From an uncultured Opitutia bacterium (GTDB lineage Bacteria > Verrucomicrobiota > Verrucomicrobiia > Opitutales > UBA953), in contig CAIOPO010000100.1 in the NCBI GenBank assembly GCA_903860195.1, positions 1-52,922 of the forward strand: 52,922 nt of DNA, given 5' to 3'. The notes under the pieces are model-generated. The model did no database searches. It saw only the letters and a list, made by a program, of their open reading frames with translations, and was not told where the DNA came from. A program made the translations under genes and the position numbers. This document shows positions 28,781 to 37,598 of the stretch, piece after piece (the stretch's first letter is position 1; every line of letters begins with the position of its first letter).

Positions 28781-29995
28781 ATGGTGATCAAGGTGAGGAG
28801 TGACGCCCCGGAGTCCCTGGCTGGGTACTCCGTCGGCATCCTCCTCATCGCCCTCGCGCTCGCGGCGTTCGGGCTGATGGTGCAGTACAGCGCGGGCATC
28901 TCGCTGTCATCGAGCAACCGGCTGGTGGCGTTCGAGCGTCAGCTCATGTACCTGCCCGCCGCCCTGCTCGCGGGGTGGCTCATCTACCGGATCGACCTCG
29001 ACGCCGTCCGCCGACACCGCGTCTGGATCTTCTCGGTCGCGATGGTCGCCCTCGTCGCCGCCCGCATCCCCGGCATCGGCGTCTCCGTCAACGGCTCCTG
29101 GCGCTGGATCGACCTCGGCTTCATCCGGCTGCAGGCCTCGGACCTGGGCAAGGTGGCGCTGGTGGTCATGCTCGCGCACTACCTGGCCGGCTCCCAGCGA
29201 CGCACGCTGAGGCCCGACTTCCCGCTCCTCAGGTTCAGTTCGCGCAGTCCTTATCTGATGACCGCCGCCGGCTGGGATGACCTCCGCGAGGGATATCTCT
29301 GGCCGGCCGGAGTCATCGTCTTCATCTGCGGCGGAATCGCCCTGGGTCCCGACCTGGGCACGATCCTGCTGTGCTGCGCCGTCGGCGGCACGATGATGCT
29401 CATGTCGGGAGCCCGCTGGCGCTACGTCATCCCGACCTTCCTCGTCGGAGCCGCGGTCTTCGCGGCGGTCGTCCTGAACTGGGAGAACCGCATGCGCCGC
29501 TTCCTCTCCTTCACCGATCCGTGGGGAAGACGCGGTGACGAGGCCTACCAGCTGTTCGAGGGGATGGTCGCCTTCGGCGTCGGCGGGCTCACCGGACAGG
29601 GGGCGGCGCAAGGGCTGCAGGGGCGCGCCTTCCTGCCGGAGGCCCACACCGACTTCGTCTTCTCCGTGATCGGGGAGGAATACGGGCTGTTCGCCACCGC
29701 GTCCGTGGCCACGGCCTATCTGGTCATCTTCCTGCTCGCCCACCGGGCGATGCGGCGTTCCACCGACCTGTACCGTTTCAACCTCTGCCTGGGGGCCACG
29801 CTCTTCCTCGTCATGCAGGCGCTCGTCAACATGGGCGTCGTGACCGGTCTCCTGCCGACCAAGGGGATTTCCCTGCCGTTCCTCAGCTACGGCGGCACCA
29901 ACCTCGTGGTCATGGCCTGCATGGTCGGCCTGACGCTCAACTGCCTGCGGGACGCGCAGGCGCCGGCGTTCGTGCCCGGGGAGGCCAGGGCATGA
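28781..29995 (+). CDS. ftsW: SEDS peptidoglycan polymerase FtsW
   Basis: Multi-TM; VSVNGSWRWIDLGFIRLQASDLGKVALV, LPEAHTDFVFSVIGEEYGL, LLPTKGISLPFLSYGGTNL. Confidence 0.95.
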   Translation: MVIKVRSDAPESLAGYSVGILLIALALAAFGLMVQYSAGISLSSSNRLVAFERQLMYLPAALLAGWLIYRIDLDAVRRHRVWIFSVAMVALVAARIPGIGVSVNGSWRWIDLGFIRLQASDLGKVALVVMLAHYLAGSQRRTLRPDFPLLRFSSRSPYLMTAAGWDDLREGYLWPAGVIVFICGGIALGPDLGTILLCCAVGGTMMLMSGARWRYVIPTFLVGAAVFAAVVLNWENRMRRFLSFTDPWGRRGDEAYQLFEGMVAFGVGGLTGQGAAQGLQGRAFLPEAHTDFVFSVIGEEYGLFATASVATAYLVIFLLAHRAMRRSTDLYRFNLCLGATLFLVMQALVNMGVVTGLLPTKGISLPFLSYGGTNLVVMACMVGLTLNCLRDAQAPAFVPGEARA

Positions 29996-31077
29996 GGCGC
30001 ATCCTGCTCGCCTGCGGCGGCACCGGCGGCCACCTGGCTCCGGGCATCGCGCTGGCGCAGAGGCTGACGGCGGAGGGCGACGCCTGCCTGCTCATCGTGA
30101 GCCGCAAGGCCGTCGACGCCAGGATGACCGCGAAGTACCCGTCGCTCCGTTTCGAGCCCGGCAGGGGCAGGGGCTTCGGCCCCGGTCTGCTCGGCAAGGC
30201 GCTGTTCTTCCCCTCTTTCCTGGGAGCGGTGTGGTCCTCCTGGCGCACCTTGCGTAGCTTCCGCGCGGACGCGGTGGTCTGCTTCGGCGGGTTCATGAGC
30301 CTCGGTCCGGCCGTGGCCGCCGCGCTCTCCGGCGTGCCCGTCATCGTCCACGAGGCCAATCGCAGGCCCGGCAAGGCCGTGCGGCTCATCGCACGCTTCG
30401 CCCGTGCGGTCCATCTCCCGCCCGGCGTGCGCATCCCGGGCGTGGCGGCGGAAAAGCAGTTCGATTCAGGTTTCCCGGTGCGGGAGGAGATCAGGGCGCT
30501 GCCTCGCGCGGAGTCACGTCGCGCGCTGGGCATGCCTGCGGAAGGACCGATGGTCCTGGTGCTCGGAGGCAGTCAGGGCGCCTCGGCGCTCACGCGCTGG
30601 GCCGGCTCCGCGATTCCCGAGCTCGCCGCCCGCGGCGCGCATCTGCTCTGCCTCACCGGACCCGCCGGGCGCGAAGGCGAGGAACGTCACGGAACGGTGA
30701 CCGCGCGGTTCCTGCCTTTCTGCGACCGCATGGCCGAGGCTTATTCGGCGGCCGATCTCGCGGTGTCCCGTGCCGGAGCGGGTTCGCTCGCCGAGCTCGC
30801 GGCCTGCCGCACTCCCTCGGTCCTCGTCCCCCTGCCAGGTTCGGCCGACGACCATCAGACGGCCAATGCGGCGCATCTCGCCGCCGCGGGCGGAGGCTTG
30901 CTCGTGCCCGAGGCCGAGATCGCGCGCCTCACGGCCGAGGTCGTCGGGTTGCTCTCCGATGCGCCGGGGCTGGACCGCATGCGCCGCTCACTGGAACCGG
31001 TGGCCGCCGCCAACCGCTGGGAGGATCTCTCCCGTCACGTCACCGCCTTCGCCGGGGAGGGCGTCGCCGTCCCATGA
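29992..31077 (+). CDS. murG: UDP-GlcNAc:lipid I GlcNAc transferase
   Basis: LACGGTGGHLAPGIALAQRL, VIVHEANRRPGKAVRLIARF, VLGGSQGASALTRW, VSRAGAGSLAELAACRTPSVLVPLPGSADDHQTANAAHL. Confidence 0.96.
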   Translation: MRRILLACGGTGGHLAPGIALAQRLTAEGDACLLIVSRKAVDARMTAKYPSLRFEPGRGRGFGPGLLGKALFFPSFLGAVWSSWRTLRSFRADAVVCFGGFMSLGPAVAAALSGVPVIVHEANRRPGKAVRLIARFARAVHLPPGVRIPGVAAEKQFDSGFPVREEIRALPRAESRRALGMPAEGPMVLVLGGSQGASALTRWAGSAIPELAARGAHLLCLTGPAGREGEERHGTVTARFLPFCDRMAEAYSAADLAVSRAGAGSLAELAACRTPSVLVPLPGSADDHQTANAAHLAAAGGGLLVPEAEIARLTAEVVGLLSDAPGLDRMRRSLEPVAAANRWEDLSRHVTAFAGEGVAVP

Positions 31078-33350
31078 GCGCCGGTTCCGTCTGGATGCTG
31101 GGTGCCTGCGGCATGGGCGTCGGGCCGCTGGCGATCTTCCTGCGCGGCGAGGGCTGGGAGGTTTCCGGCTGGGATGACTCCACCGGCAGCCCGATGGAGC
31201 TGCAGCTGGCCGACGCCGAGATCCCGCTGCTGCGCGACCCTTGGGCCGCCGGACGTTCGCCCGGACTCGTCGGCCGTTCGAGCGCCGTGAAGCCGGGTCA
31301 TCCCGCCCTCGCCTTGGCCGAGAGCAGGGGGGCGCGCGTGCTGCGACGCGGGGAGCTGCTCGCCGAGCGGGTCGCGGCCCGGCGTTTCGTCGCAGTCTGC
31401 GGCAGCCATGGCAAGACCACGACCTGCGGCATGATCGTGGCGGCGCTGACCGGCGCCGGCGCGGACTTCGGCTACGTGCTCGGCGGACTTTTCCGTGACC
31501 CCGCGATGCCGCCCGCGCGCGCCTCCGCCTCCTCGCCCTGGGTGGTGGCCGAAGTTGACGAAAGCGACGGCACCATCGGCGCCTTCTCGCCTGACGTCAC
31601 CGTGGCGGTGAACCTCGACTGGGACCATCCCGACTACTATCGCGACGAGGCGGATCTTGAGGCCGTCTTCCGGCGTCTCTTCGAGCGCACGCGCACCGCG
31701 GTGATCATCCCCGCGGGCAACGCGCGGCTCGAACGGCTCACGGCGGGACTCCGCGTGCCCGTGCTGCGCGTGGGCGCCGAGGGCGACTACCGCGTCCGGC
31801 CCGTCGCCGGCGACCATGCGACTTCCGTCCTGGAACTGGGCGGCGCCTTCCCCGCGACCCAGGTGACGGTGCCCGTCGCAGGCACCTTCAATCGTGCCAA
31901 CGCCGCGATGGCCCTGGCCGCGGCGCACGTCGTCACGGGTTCCGTGGCGGCCGATCCGCTGGGGCGCTGGCGCGGCATCCGGCGCCGTCAGGACGTCCTT
32001 TTCGAACGGCCCGGCCTGCGCGTGCTCGCCGATTACGCGCATCATCCCACGGAGATTGCGGCGCTGCTGCGCTGGCTGCGCGAGACGCATTCCGGACGCG
32101 TCATCGTCGTGTTCCAGCCCCACCGTCACACCCGCACGCGCCAGTACGCCGCCGAGTTCCGTCAGGCGCTGTCGGCCGCCGATCACGCGCTGGTGATGCC
32201 CGTCTACTCCGCCGGGGAGGCCGCGGTCGAGGGCGGCGGGTCGGAGTCGGTGGTGGCCGGATCGGCGCACCGGCTCATCGAGGACCGTCGCGCCTTGCCC
32301 GAGGCCCTTGACGCGCTCGTCGCGGGCCAGGAGGCCGTGGTGGCCTTCGTGGGCGCGGGTGACATCGAGCGCGACGCCGAGGCTTACGCGAAGCGTCAGC
32401 GCCGCGTCGGCGCCGCCGTGACGCCCGACCTCCCGGACCTCGTCGCGGGCCGGCTTTCCCCCGAGTGCGCGCTGCGCGCCAATGAGCCGCTGGCCCGTCG
32501 CACCACCCTCGGCCTCGGCGGCAACGCGCGCTGGTACGCCGAGCCCGCCACGGTCGACGACGTCGTCACGCTGCTGCGCGCCTGCGCGGAGCTCGACCTG
32601 CGCTGGTTCGTCGTCGGCCGCGGCAGCAACCTGCTGGTGCCGGACGACGGTTACGACGGACTGGTGCTCCATCTGGATTCCTCCCGCTGGGGCGAAGTCA
32701 CGCCGCTCGGCGAAGGCCGCCTGCGGGTCGGAGGCGGGGCGAGGCTCAAGGAGCTCTGCGGCGTCGCGGCCCGCGAGGGACTTGCCGGATTCGAATTCCT
32801 GGAGGGCATCCCCGGGACGCTCGGCGGCTCCCTGCGCATGAACGCCGGCGCCATGGGCGGCTGGATCTTCGACGTCGTCGAGTCGGTGGAGTGGCTTTCC
32901 CCGCAGGGCAGGGTGCGCGCCGCCCGTCGTGACTCCTTCGACGCGCTCTACCGCGACTGTCCGCAGCTTCACGGCTCCGTCGTGCTGTCGGCGGTCCTGC
33001 GCGCCGCGGGCCGCGACGAGCCGGCGGCCATCCGCGCCCGCATGGAGGACATGGCGCGCCGTCGTCGCGAGACGCAGCCGCGCGAATCCAGTGCGGGCTG
33101 CGTTTTCCGTAATCCCGATTCCGCCAAGGCGGGGATGCTCGTCGACCAGGCCGGTCTCAAGGGGCTGGCGTGCGGCGACGCGGAGGTCTCCGCCCTGCAC
33201 GCCAACTTCATCGTCAACCGCGGCACGGCCAGCGCCGCGCAGTTCGTCGAGGTGATGCGCCGCGTCCGGGCGGGGGTGAAGGAGAGCCGGGGCGTGGAGC
33301 TCCAGCCCGAGATCATCGCGCTCGGCCGCGAATGGAGGGACCTCCTGTGA
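31074..33350 (+). CDS. murC-murB: Fused UDP-N-acetylmuramate--alanine ligase / UDP-N-acetylenolpyruvoylglucosamine reductase
   Basis: MurC: VCGSHGKTTTCGMIVAAL, EVDESDGTIG, LADYAHHPTEIAALLRWL; MurB: RTTLGLGGNARWYAEP, GRGSNLLVPDDGYDGLVLHL, GIPGTLGGSLRMNAGAMGG, SAGCVFRNPD. Confidence 0.95.
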   Translation: MSAGSVWMLGACGMGVGPLAIFLRGEGWEVSGWDDSTGSPMELQLADAEIPLLRDPWAAGRSPGLVGRSSAVKPGHPALALAESRGARVLRRGELLAERVAARRFVAVCGSHGKTTTCGMIVAALTGAGADFGYVLGGLFRDPAMPPARASASSPWVVAEVDESDGTIGAFSPDVTVAVNLDWDHPDYYRDEADLEAVFRRLFERTRTAVIIPAGNARLERLTAGLRVPVLRVGAEGDYRVRPVAGDHATSVLELGGAFPATQVTVPVAGTFNRANAAMALAAAHVVTGSVAADPLGRWRGIRRRQDVLFERPGLRVLADYAHHPTEIAALLRWLRETHSGRVIVVFQPHRHTRTRQYAAEFRQALSAADHALVMPVYSAGEAAVEGGGSESVVAGSAHRLIEDRRALPEALDALVAGQEAVVAFVGAGDIERDAEAYAKRQRRVGAAVTPDLPDLVAGRLSPECALRANEPLARRTTLGLGGNARWYAEPATVDDVVTLLRACAELDLRWFVVGRGSNLLVPDDGYDGLVLHLDSSRWGEVTPLGEGRLRVGGGARLKELCGVAAREGLAGFEFLEGIPGTLGGSLRMNAGAMGGWIFDVVESVEWLSPQGRVRAARRDSFDALYRDCPQLHGSVVLSAVLRAAGRDEPAAIRARMEDMARRRRETQPRESSAGCVFRNPDSAKAGMLVDQAGLKGLACGDAEVSALHANFIVNRGTASAAQFVEVMRRVRAGVKESRGVELQPEIIALGREWRDLL

Positions 33351-34268: not shown

Positions 34269-35237
34269 ATGGGCCTCTTCGACCGGATCTTCGGACGACG
34301 TCGTGATTCTTATCTCGGCCCCACGGACCGTGACTGGCGCAACCTCGTCCCGCAGGAGGTCAACCGCGTGCCGGCCGACGAGGTCGGCCGCCGTCGCGCC
34401 GTCCGGTCCCGGCTGCCCGCCGTTTTCGGCGCGGTGCTGTTCGCCCTGATGGGCTATCTTCTCTGGGTCGCGCTGGAGGACTCCACGCCCACCGGCAGGG
34501 TCGCGCTCCGTTACAAGACCGACGGATTCCTGCCCGAGTCCTTCCTCCGCCAGGTCGTCGGCTCCTCGCCCGACGGCGCGGCGCGCGACGTGCGCGCCAT
34601 CAAGGCCGACCTCGAGTCGGACAACCAGGTCATGTCCGCCGACGTCCGTCGGCGCGCGGACGGCAGTCTCGACGTCTCCGTCCGGGAGCGCGTGGCCGTG
34701 GCCCGCGTCGCGCTCGCCGAGGGCGGCCCGATCGTCGTCCGGCTCGTCAGCCCCGACGGCCGCACTTTCGCCGGACTGGGCTACCCCGAGGCGACCGTCA
34801 GGGCGCTGCCGGAGATCCGTGACTTCCGCATGACCGGAGAAGGCGACCGTCTGTCCGTCGAAGGCCTCGAGGTCGTGGGACCGTTCCTGCTGACGGCGCG
34901 GCAGGACCACGAGCGCCATTACCGCCAGTGGGCCTCCGTCTCCCTGCGCGACTGCTTCGGGGCCCAGGACGACGCCCCGGGTTCCAACCTCAACGTCACC
35001 GTGCGCGCGGCCTCCCAGCCTTCGGACCGGCCGGCCCTGGTGGGCATCGTCTTCTCGACGGCCAACTGGAGGCAGGAGCTCGCGATGCTGCCCCGGATCG
35101 ACGTCGACGCGCTGCTCCGCCGCCCCGGCGTCACCTCGCAGTCCTACGTCCTCAAGCTTTCCATCCGCAACCGCACTTACAATCCTCCCGTGCCCGAACC
35201 GCGCCTGGTGCCCGTCACCGCCTCCGTCATCCGATGA
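34269..35237 (+). CDS. ftsQ: FtsQ-like division protein
   Basis: Cytoplasmic N-terminus, single TM (LPAVFGAVLFALMGYLLWVAL), position between ddl and ftsA; weak sequence motifs. Confidence 0.65.
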   Translation: MGLFDRIFGRRRDSYLGPTDRDWRNLVPQEVNRVPADEVGRRRAVRSRLPAVFGAVLFALMGYLLWVALEDSTPTGRVALRYKTDGFLPESFLRQVVGSSPDGAARDVRAIKADLESDNQVMSADVRRRADGSLDVSVRERVAVARVALAEGGPIVVRLVSPDGRTFAGLGYPEATVRALPEIRDFRMTGEGDRLSVEGLEVVGPFLLTARQDHERHYRQWASVSLRDCFGAQDDAPGSNLNVTVRAASQPSDRPALVGIVFSTANWRQELAMLPRIDVDALLRRPGVTSQSYVLKLSIRNRTYNPPVPEPRLVPVTASVIR

Positions 35238-36469
35238 CTCCCAAGCCGCTCCCCTCGCTCATCGCCGTCATCGACATCGGCACCTCGAAGACCGCGAGCC
35301 TCGTCGGACAGATGATCGGCGGCCAGGCGCGCATGCTCAGCTTCAGCGAGCGTCGCACCGAGGGCGTGGTGAAGGGCGTCGTCACCGACCTCGAGAAGCT
35401 GCACGCCTGCGTCCACGAGGTGGTGCATGACGTCGAGCGGGGCTCCGGCCGCGGCGTCTCCGAGGTCTACCTCTCGCTCGGCGGACCGGCCGCCGAAGGC
35501 GAGCGCGTGAAGGGCCTCGTCATGGTGCCCGCCCGCGACGGCCGGGTCACGCTGAAGGACCTCCAGGACGCCGTGGCCTCCGCCCGACGCCAGGAGCCGC
35601 CGGCGGGACGGACCACCATCCTCTACATGCGCCAGCCCACCATGCTGGACGGGAAGCCCGTCGCCAGCCCCGTGGGCATGACCGGCAAGCGCCTGGAGGT
35701 CAGCTTCTGGCGCGTCACGATGGAGGAGGCGCTCGTGCGCCTGCGCGTCGGCATGGTCAACGGCATGAGCATCCGCGTGCGGGACTTCATCCTCGCCTCC
35801 CATGCGGCGGCCTGCGCGGTCGCGCAGGACGCGGACAAGCACGGCGGGGTGCTGGTGGTCGACATGGGCGCCGGCACGACCGACTGGATCCTCTATTTCA
35901 AGGACCACATCCTCTGCGCCGGCTCGCTGCCCGTCGGCGGGGAGCATCTCACCAACGACCTCAGCGTGGCCCTGCGGGTCAGCCGTGAGACCGCGGAGGA
36001 CCTGAAGTGCAGGTTCGGTTCGGCCGTGCACCGTGAGGCCGACGTCAACCAGACCATCTGGAAGGACGGCGACCGCGGGCTCGGGGACCAGCAGTTCAAC
36101 CGCGGCACCATCACCCGGGTGCTCTCCCTGCGCTATCAGGAGACGCTCGACCTCGTCCGCAAGGACGCGCTGCGTCAGCTCGAGGGGATCTTCCCGGGTC
36201 ATGCCGTGCGGCTGGACCAGCACATGCTGCCCTCGGGCGTCATCCTCACGGGCGGTTCCGCCAACCTCGCGGACGCCTGCGAGGCCGTGCAGCAGACGAT
36301 GGGGCTGACCGCGCGGGTGGGCATGCCCGTCTTCGACAACGATTCGCTGCGGAAGCCCGAGTATGCGGGCGTCGTGGGGCTCATGCGCGCCGCCATCACC
36401 GACGCCCCGCCCGCCGCCCGTCGTCCGCGCGGGCTCTGGGAGCAGCTCAAGGCGCTGTTCCGCCTCTAA
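35234..36469 (+). CDS. ftsA: Cell division protein FtsA
   Basis: IAVIDIGTSKTASLVGQ, VVDMGAGTTDWILY, LPSGVILTGGSANL, C-terminal amphipathic GLWEQLKALFRL. Confidence 0.93.
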   Translation: MTPKPLPSLIAVIDIGTSKTASLVGQMIGGQARMLSFSERRTEGVVKGVVTDLEKLHACVHEVVHDVERGSGRGVSEVYLSLGGPAAEGERVKGLVMVPARDGRVTLKDLQDAVASARRQEPPAGRTTILYMRQPTMLDGKPVASPVGMTGKRLEVSFWRVTMEEALVRLRVGMVNGMSIRVRDFILASHAAACAVAQDADKHGGVLVVDMGAGTTDWILYFKDHILCAGSLPVGGEHLTNDLSVALRVSRETAEDLKCRFGSAVHREADVNQTIWKDGDRGLGDQQFNRGTITRVLSLRYQETLDLVRKDALRQLEGIFPGHAVRLDQHMLPSGVILTGGSANLADACEAVQQTMGLTARVGMPVFDNDSLRKPEYAGVVGLMRAAITDAPPAARRPRGLWEQLKALFRL

Positions 36470-36470
36470 G

Positions 36471-37598
36471 ATGGAACGCGCGCCCTCGATCCTCCTTCTC
36501 GGACTGGGCGGCGCCGGTTGCTCGATGGTGGCGCGCCTCTCGGCCGCCTTGCCGGCGGAGGTCGGGGCGCTGTTCCTCGACACCGACGAGCGTTCGCTGC
36601 CGGCGGACGCGCGGACGATCCAACTCGGCCGGCAGCAGACGCGCGGCATGGGCACCGGCGGTGAGACGGGGGCCGGCCTGGCCGCCGCGGAGTCCGAGGA
36701 GGTGGCCTTGCGCCGCGCGCTGGCGGGCGCGCCGGTCGTCGTGATCGTCACCGGACTGGGCGGAGGCACGGGCAGCGGGGCCGGACCTTTCGTCGCCGGA
36801 CTCGCCGCCGACTCCGGCGCCACGGTCCTGTGTTTCGCGACGATGCCCTTCTCGCACGAAGGGGAGCGTCGTCAGCGCGAAGCCGACCAGGCCGCGACCG
36901 CGCTGGCGGCGCGCTGCCATGGATTCGTCGCCGTGCACAACGACCTGCTCCTGCAGCAGGTGCCGGCCGATTCCGCGCTGCCCGCGACCTTCGCCGCGGC
37001 CGACGCCTGGGTCGGAGGCGCCATCCGCGGCCTCGCGGCCGCCTTCGCGCCGGGAGCGCTGGTGCCCGCCGATCCGGCGGCCATCCGTTCGATCCTCTCG
37101 ACTCCCGGGTCGCCCACGCTCTGCGCCTTCGGCGCGGGCGAAGGGCCGCGCGCCGCGATGACGGCCGCCCGGGCGGCCGTCGAATGCCCCCTCGCCCACG
37201 GTCCGGGAGCGGTGACCAAGGTCGCCTCGATCTTCGTGCACGTCTCCGGCGGCCCCGAGCTGACCTCGACCGACGCGTTCGACGCCGTGGCCATGGTCCG
37301 CCAAAAGTTCGGCGGCAACACGGCCACGGTGCTGTGCGCGCGCACCGATCCCGGGATGGCCGGCCGGGCCGAAGTCTCCGTGCTCGGAGCCTCGCTGCCC
37401 GAACCGAAGCCGGCCAAGGCGCGCAAGGGGGGCAAGGGGGCCAAGGACGACCAGTCGCAGACGGTGTTCCCCTTCGCCACCGATGACGCGGTGCGGCGCG
37501 GCTTCTTCGGCGGCGCCCCCCTCACGATCGTCGACGGACAGGACATCGACGTGCCCACCTACATCCGCAGGGCGGTGCGGCTGCCCGCGGGCCCCTGA
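36471..37598 (+). CDS. ftsZ: Divergent cell division protein FtsZ
   Basis: Tubulin signature GGGTGSGAGP, ATMPFSHEGERR, GFVAVHNDLLL, C-terminal DIDVPTYIRR peptide; T7 loop is atypical. Confidence 0.88.
   Translation: MERAPSILLLGLGGAGCSMVARLSAALPAEVGALFLDTDERSLPADARTIQLGRQQTRGMGTGGETGAGLAAAESEEVALRRALAGAPVVVIVTGLGGGTGSGAGPFVAGLAADSGATVLCFATMPFSHEGERRQREADQAATALAARCHGFVAVHNDLLLQQVPADSALPATFAAADAWVGGAIRGLAAAFAPGALVPADPAAIRSILSTPGSPTLCAFGAGEGPRAAMTAARAAVECPLAHGPGAVTKVASIFVHVSGGPELTSTDAFDAVAMVRQKFGGNTATVLCARTDPGMAGRAEVSVLGASLPEPKPAKARKGGKGAKDDQSQTVFPFATDDAVRRGFFGGAPLTIVDGQDIDVPTYIRRAVRLPAGP

Follow-up and report, generated by a model that had tools for sequence, protein, structure and literature searches.

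By the usual description, both aspartates of the FtsZ T7 loop are conserved and take part in catalysis, and mutation of either one is harmful in the model species. What, then, becomes of GTP hydrolysis in an FtsZ that has kept one of them? The question is raised by a stretch of 52,922 nucleotides from an uncultured Opitutia bacterium (contig CAIOPO010000100.1, referred to below as the window; order taken as Opitutales), in which the FtsZ departs from the canonical T7 pattern NxDxxD and carries proline, aspartate and alanine at the positions of E. coli N207, D209 and D212.

The gene lies in a dcw cluster, with ftsA directly before it (ftsZ starts 1 base past the ftsA stop codon) and murG and a murC-murB fusion upstream (Table 1); the same fusion was reported for V. 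spinosum (PMC12283558). The encoded FtsA ends in the amphipathic tail GLWEQLKALFRL, read directly from the translation, as the sequence-only reading of this locus had noticed. The ftsZ product matches PF00091 (Tubulin/FtsZ GTPase domain) with E 9.6e-27 and 94.9 bits against a cut-off of 33, while for PF12327 (FtsZ_C) it reaches 26.6 bits against a cut-off of 27 (E 7.4e-6). Its sole NCBIfam match, near full-length, is to the FtsZ equivalog TIGR00065 (E 2e-50). Its score of 172.1 bits is below the curated cut-off of 295.2, which places the protein outside the curated range of that model, while homology and locus identify it as an FtsZ orthologue. The best phmmer match among FtsZ structures in PDB has E 6e-37 and covers query residues 7-310. 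When the AlphaFold2 monomer (pLDDT 91) was submitted to Foldseek, all 50 of the 50 matches listed were FtsZ (best E 1.6e-30), with TM normalised by target of 0.82-0.92 and one exception among these 50; on the basis of this model the protein is predicted, with high confidence, to fold as FtsZ.

Table 1. Features of the ftsZ locus, with positions in the window and equivalent residues of E. coli and S. aureus FtsZ.
Feature	Position	Strand	Remarks
murG	29992..31077	+	PF04101/PF03033
murC-murB fusion	31074..33350	+	Mur ligase domains and MurB_C
ORF at the ftsQ position, just upstream of ftsA	34269..35237	+	no Pfam match
ftsA	35234..36469	+	411 aa; PF14450 (E 3.8e-28), PF02491
ftsZ, non-canonical	36471..37598	+	375 aa, ATG to TGA; PF00091, TIGR00065, PDB matches, AlphaFold2, Foldseek
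T2 loop D37-T38-D39-E40-R41	36579..36593	+	E. coli N43D, D45 kept, Q47R; docking face for T7 of the next subunit
E65 in T3 loop	36663..36665	+	E. coli N73; acid gained phylum-wide; loop faces the gamma-phosphate
T4 tubulin signature GGGTGSGAGP	36759..36788	+	retained
R134	36870..36872	+	E. coli R142, catalytic arginine R143 of S. aureus; retained; role from PMC8936486
T7 loop/H8 start VPADPAAI (V198-P199-A200-D201-P202-A203-A204-I205)	37062..37085	+	ungapped alignment; N207P, D209 kept, D212A
P199	37065..37067	+	E. coli N207, K+-coordinating N208 of S. aureus; lost; genus: Ala 25, Pro 12, Ser 1
D201	37071..37073	+	E. coli D209, S. aureus D210; remaining T7 acid; Asp in 38/38 genus sequences, GAT/GAC
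A204	37080..37082	+	E. coli D212, S. aureus D213; acid lost; genus: Ala 36, Ser 1, Val 1
C-terminal peptide DIDVPTYIRR	37542..37571	+	FtsA-binding type; P362 and R366 invariant in 42 verrucomicrobial FtsZ

The pairing of P199, D201 and A204 with N207, D209 and D212, at first made by eye, was recovered by two programs. In phmmer against solved FtsZ structures the T7 stretch runs gap-free against LMNVDFADVRTV (P199 under N207, A200 under V208, D201 under D209 and A204 under D212), window GALVPADPAAIRSI lying beneath FtsZ GLMNVDFADVRTV without a gap, and MAFFT, run independently of phmmer on slightly more than 200 FtsZ sequences from genomes at the levels of genus, order, class and phylum, gives identical columns. 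Misalignment was ruled out by this agreement, and the predicted structure agrees with canonical FtsZ in having D201 where T7 ends and A204 in the opening turn of H8. Of a broader artefact, including sequencing error or a mis-binned contig, there is hardly any prospect: the source MAG is 85% complete, but dozens of genomes and contigs independently carry the motif, the alignment is gapless and the gene sits in a dcw cluster.

All 38 sequences of the genus-level group that cover T7 keep D209 and have lost both D212 and N207, and the opening turns of H8 show no compensating acid gained in the genus. The named matches within the genus are freshwater Opitutae MAGs, which is the ground for assigning the order to Opitutales. 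In relatives the codons vary (GAT/GAC for D201; GCC/GCG/GCT for A204) with the amino acids unchanged, which, together with the fixation of D209 and non-D212 in the genus, sets the T7 pattern beyond chance. The window ftsZ is under purifying selection, with dN/dS of about 0.12-0.19 against its two nearest relatives. The search for a canonical second FtsZ that could do the work, proposed along with the initial observation, returned a single match in the own MAG and exactly one in each genus genome with a match, so that none was found in the genomes searched.

Outside T7, the P-loop-like GTP face had been described as retained, and this description holds: in E. coli numbering G105-G109, E138, R142, N165, D166 and D45 are kept, and N24S, N43D, Q47R, N73E and T110S are changed. 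The alteration noticed in T1 is real at N24, now serine, but mild, since G20 and G22 are kept. The resemblance of the C-terminus to the FtsA-binding peptide was confirmed by the conservation given in Table 1. A longer block, QxxFxFxxExxxRGxFxxT...GxDLDVPTYLRR (window 37458-37571), which ends in this peptide, is conserved in aligned verrucomicrobial FtsZ. The window protein has in common with canonical FtsZ (E. coli, S. aureus; NxDFxD) the fold, GTP signature, E138, R142, D45, D209, position after ftsA and C-terminal peptide, and differs from it in N207P, D212A, N43D, Q47R, N73E and the TIGR00065 score (172 vs 295 bits).

What these replacements may mean for catalysis can be read against well-studied proteins. 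The swinging residue in filaments of S. aureus FtsZ is D210 (E. coli D209), which places the attacking water, while D213 (D212) together with a T3 glycine shapes the surroundings of this water, R143 helps, and K+ binding and contact with T2 fall to N208 (N207); either substitution, D213N or N208L, is enough to abolish assembly (PMC8936486). Judged by alignment, the window FtsZ still has this swinging acid as well as the arginine, and has no equivalent of D213 or N208. In E. coli D212A leaves about 7% of GTPase activity (cited in PMC8142252) and D212G complements only in the presence of suppressors (PMC5405962), yet extra FtsZ(D212A) supplied with FtsA to cells with wild-type FtsZ results in extra septa that are completed (PMC4383033). 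Like the window FtsZ, these mutants lack D212 and keep D209, but they are crippled or suppressor-needing laboratory alleles, whereas the loss described here is a fixed trait of an order, with N207 gone as well. Slow GTP hydrolysis, anticipated from the sequence at the outset, may reasonably be expected by analogy with D212A of E. coli and with the two S. aureus mutants that block assembly.

We judge it fairly probable that the window encodes a working division FtsZ, whose composite GTPase site is reduced to one T7 acid and whose GTP turnover is probably slow. Filaments would form, T7 of one subunit docking onto a T2 face of its neighbour that has evolved with it; D201 alone would place the attacking water, and GTP would be hydrolysed slowly, yet fast enough for turnover of the Z-ring. 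That a slow single-acid GTPase could support division is suggested by the residual activity and completed septa of FtsZ(D212A). For V. spinosum, TraDIS found FtsZ to be essential (PMC12283558); the species should belong to the family with bacterial tubulin genes, whose FtsZ lacks D209, and provided that its T7 is of that family type, this essentiality suggests that FtsZ can function on a single acid. The defects of D213N, N208L and D212G may also mean that losing D212 and N207 abolishes hydrolysis. The protein would then be a static or very slow scaffold that assembles on GTP binding, with turnover left to FtsA, regulators and constriction, and the same low D212A activity and extra septa, as well as lost pocket residues in a sister genus, would fit such a scaffold. 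We regard it as unlikely, if a serious contender, because a dead site would require neither the invariance of D209 nor the disfavoured loss of the second acid across the phylum, described below, and because R142 and E138 are retained.

Another place for the missing acid could be the T3 loop. The N73 position, E65 in the window, is acidic in 37/37 genus sequences and in about 90% of verrucomicrobial FtsZ (asparagine in 4/5 references), and a neighbouring loop glycine contacts the catalytic water. It is nonetheless improbable that catalysis has shifted from D201 to E65, or to some other genus-specific acid, as the T3 acid is also present (28 of 29) in families with both T7 acids and missing from some single-acid lineages. 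Being phylum-wide and common to families with both acids, it does not track T7 acid loss. In the slow single-acid enzyme that we favour, E65 may rather be a permissive change that made the loss of either T7 acid tolerable, a guess from its position.

The replacement of D212 is not peculiar to the source organism. Among 99 sequences of the order, from 25 family groups, D212 is acidic in 4 (non-acid in 95) and D209 in 92, which makes the loss old and order-wide; comparison outside Verrucomicrobiota was made with E. coli, four Bacillota loci and the literature. We infer from these sequences that D212 was lost in an ancestor of nearly all of the order and that loss of N207 came later and marks the family of the window, although N207 is gone in other families too. 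An association of D212 loss with R142 loss across the order was weak (Fisher p 0.012, in a test that ignores phylogeny) and was set aside. One order genome (G093) contains a second FtsZ of the other T7 type (L133, LINVGLDD), which was set aside as possible contamination; transfer is also possible.

In many other families of the class the picture is reversed, with D212 kept and D209 replaced by G, T, S or N. One family that has bacterial tubulin genes, apparently the Prosthecobacter/Verrucomicrobium group, has FtsZ without D209 and with D212: it shares with the window protein the single T7 acid, the verrucomicrobial C-terminal extension and the T3 acid, and is its mirror image in the acid retained. 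Among 119 dereplicated FtsZs 52 have D209 only, 37 D212 only, 24 both and 6 neither. Individual FtsZ of f8 (NxNxxT), f4, f26, f35, f51, f63 and f81 apparently lack both acids, some of the alignments being uncertain.

On a tree of the 119 sequences built without the T7 columns, the D209-only and D212-only states account for at least 9 and at least 8 changes, respectively, on starred branches. An independent-pairs test of D209 against D212 agreed in direction, and because its starred pairs were too few, a likelihood test of dependent evolution was used, which gave LR 14.0 (p 0.007) with a root that has both acids. Without ambiguous and poorly aligned families, on a mixture-model tree that also omits the T2 columns, LR rose to 18.3 (p 0.001). 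The rate of D209 loss was 0.55 with D212 present and 0.04 with it absent, about 14 times slower. These results support, short of proof given approximate trees with long branches, the notion that losing one T7 acid slows the loss of the other. Changes at N207 and N43 are also correlated on the tree (p 0.0015, against 0.78 and 0.27 for two control pairs), and as N43 belongs to the T2 loop where T7 of the next subunit docks, this suggests that the filament interface is still under selection. The sequence-only reading had called the T7 loop degenerate, which is a fair word; however, the invariance of D209 in the genus, the early loss of D212 and the reciprocal, constrained acid losses look like a maintained single-acid site and not like decay. 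We put forward tentatively, at slightly less than an even chance, that FtsZ of Verrucomicrobiota repeatedly lost one T7 aspartate, that lineages keep opposite ones and that selection blocks the double loss. In that case the two-aspartate mechanism would be dispensable, the T3 acid could be what permitted the loss, and the phylum would retain intermediate stages toward FtsZ-less division.

An acid at the D212 position is likewise absent from the non-exchangeable site of beta-tubulin. There the non-hydrolysing contact lies within the alpha/beta heterodimer, whereas in the window FtsZ it would be every contact of a homopolymer. A natural FtsZ with low GTPase was described in Ca. Thiosymbion oneisti, but its catalytic residues are conserved (PMC8953583). 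Verrucomicrobial FtsZ is known to be very divergent (PMC9871819, PMC12283558) and changed positions of the V. spinosum protein were listed (PMC1845146); no earlier mention of lost T7 acids in verrucomicrobial FtsZ was found in the literature searched. An order that divides with one T7 acid, beside sister groups that have the other, would amount to a natural experiment on the requirements of FtsZ catalysis, from which one could learn the indispensable part of the mechanism and the rate of GTP turnover that suffices for a Z-ring.

Planctomycetes and Chlamydiae, which belong to the same superphylum as Verrucomicrobiota, divide without FtsZ, and the locus bears on the origin of this mode of division. 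One may ask if the order itself is losing FtsZ, selection on the protein being relaxed as division turns FtsZ-independent. Graded losses are seen, beginning with D212, continuing with N207 and reaching pocket residues in g15; families of small genome have no detectable FtsZ. For the genus of the window such decay is very improbable, in view of its low dN/dS, fixed D201 and P202, intact FtsA and C-terminal peptide; decay toward FtsZ-less division suits g15 and the small-genome families better. In the sister genus g15 (L101, L102, L103, L105) the FtsZ pocket is altered as well, by G106R/H, D45S, R142S/P and N207R in most, with D209 kept.

The small genomes are 11 MAGs of 0.8-1.0 Mb in families f7, f25, f27 and f28 (G030, G049, G053, G058, G067, G085, G098, G100, G110, G111, G121), in which neither Pfam nor an order-level profile found FtsZ. 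Each has two FtsW/RodA genes, FtsA-family matches are absent, weak or of MreB length only, and independent loss of FtsZ within Verrucomicrobiota is likely here. In a further genome, G104 of f17 (one contig, 2.3 Mb, 95% complete), FtsZ, FtsA, FtsW/RodA and Mur ligase were not found, and it is possibly a wall-less relative; six of its congeners have at least 6 Mur ligase matches each and a divergent FtsZ, and the congener G060 has just two.
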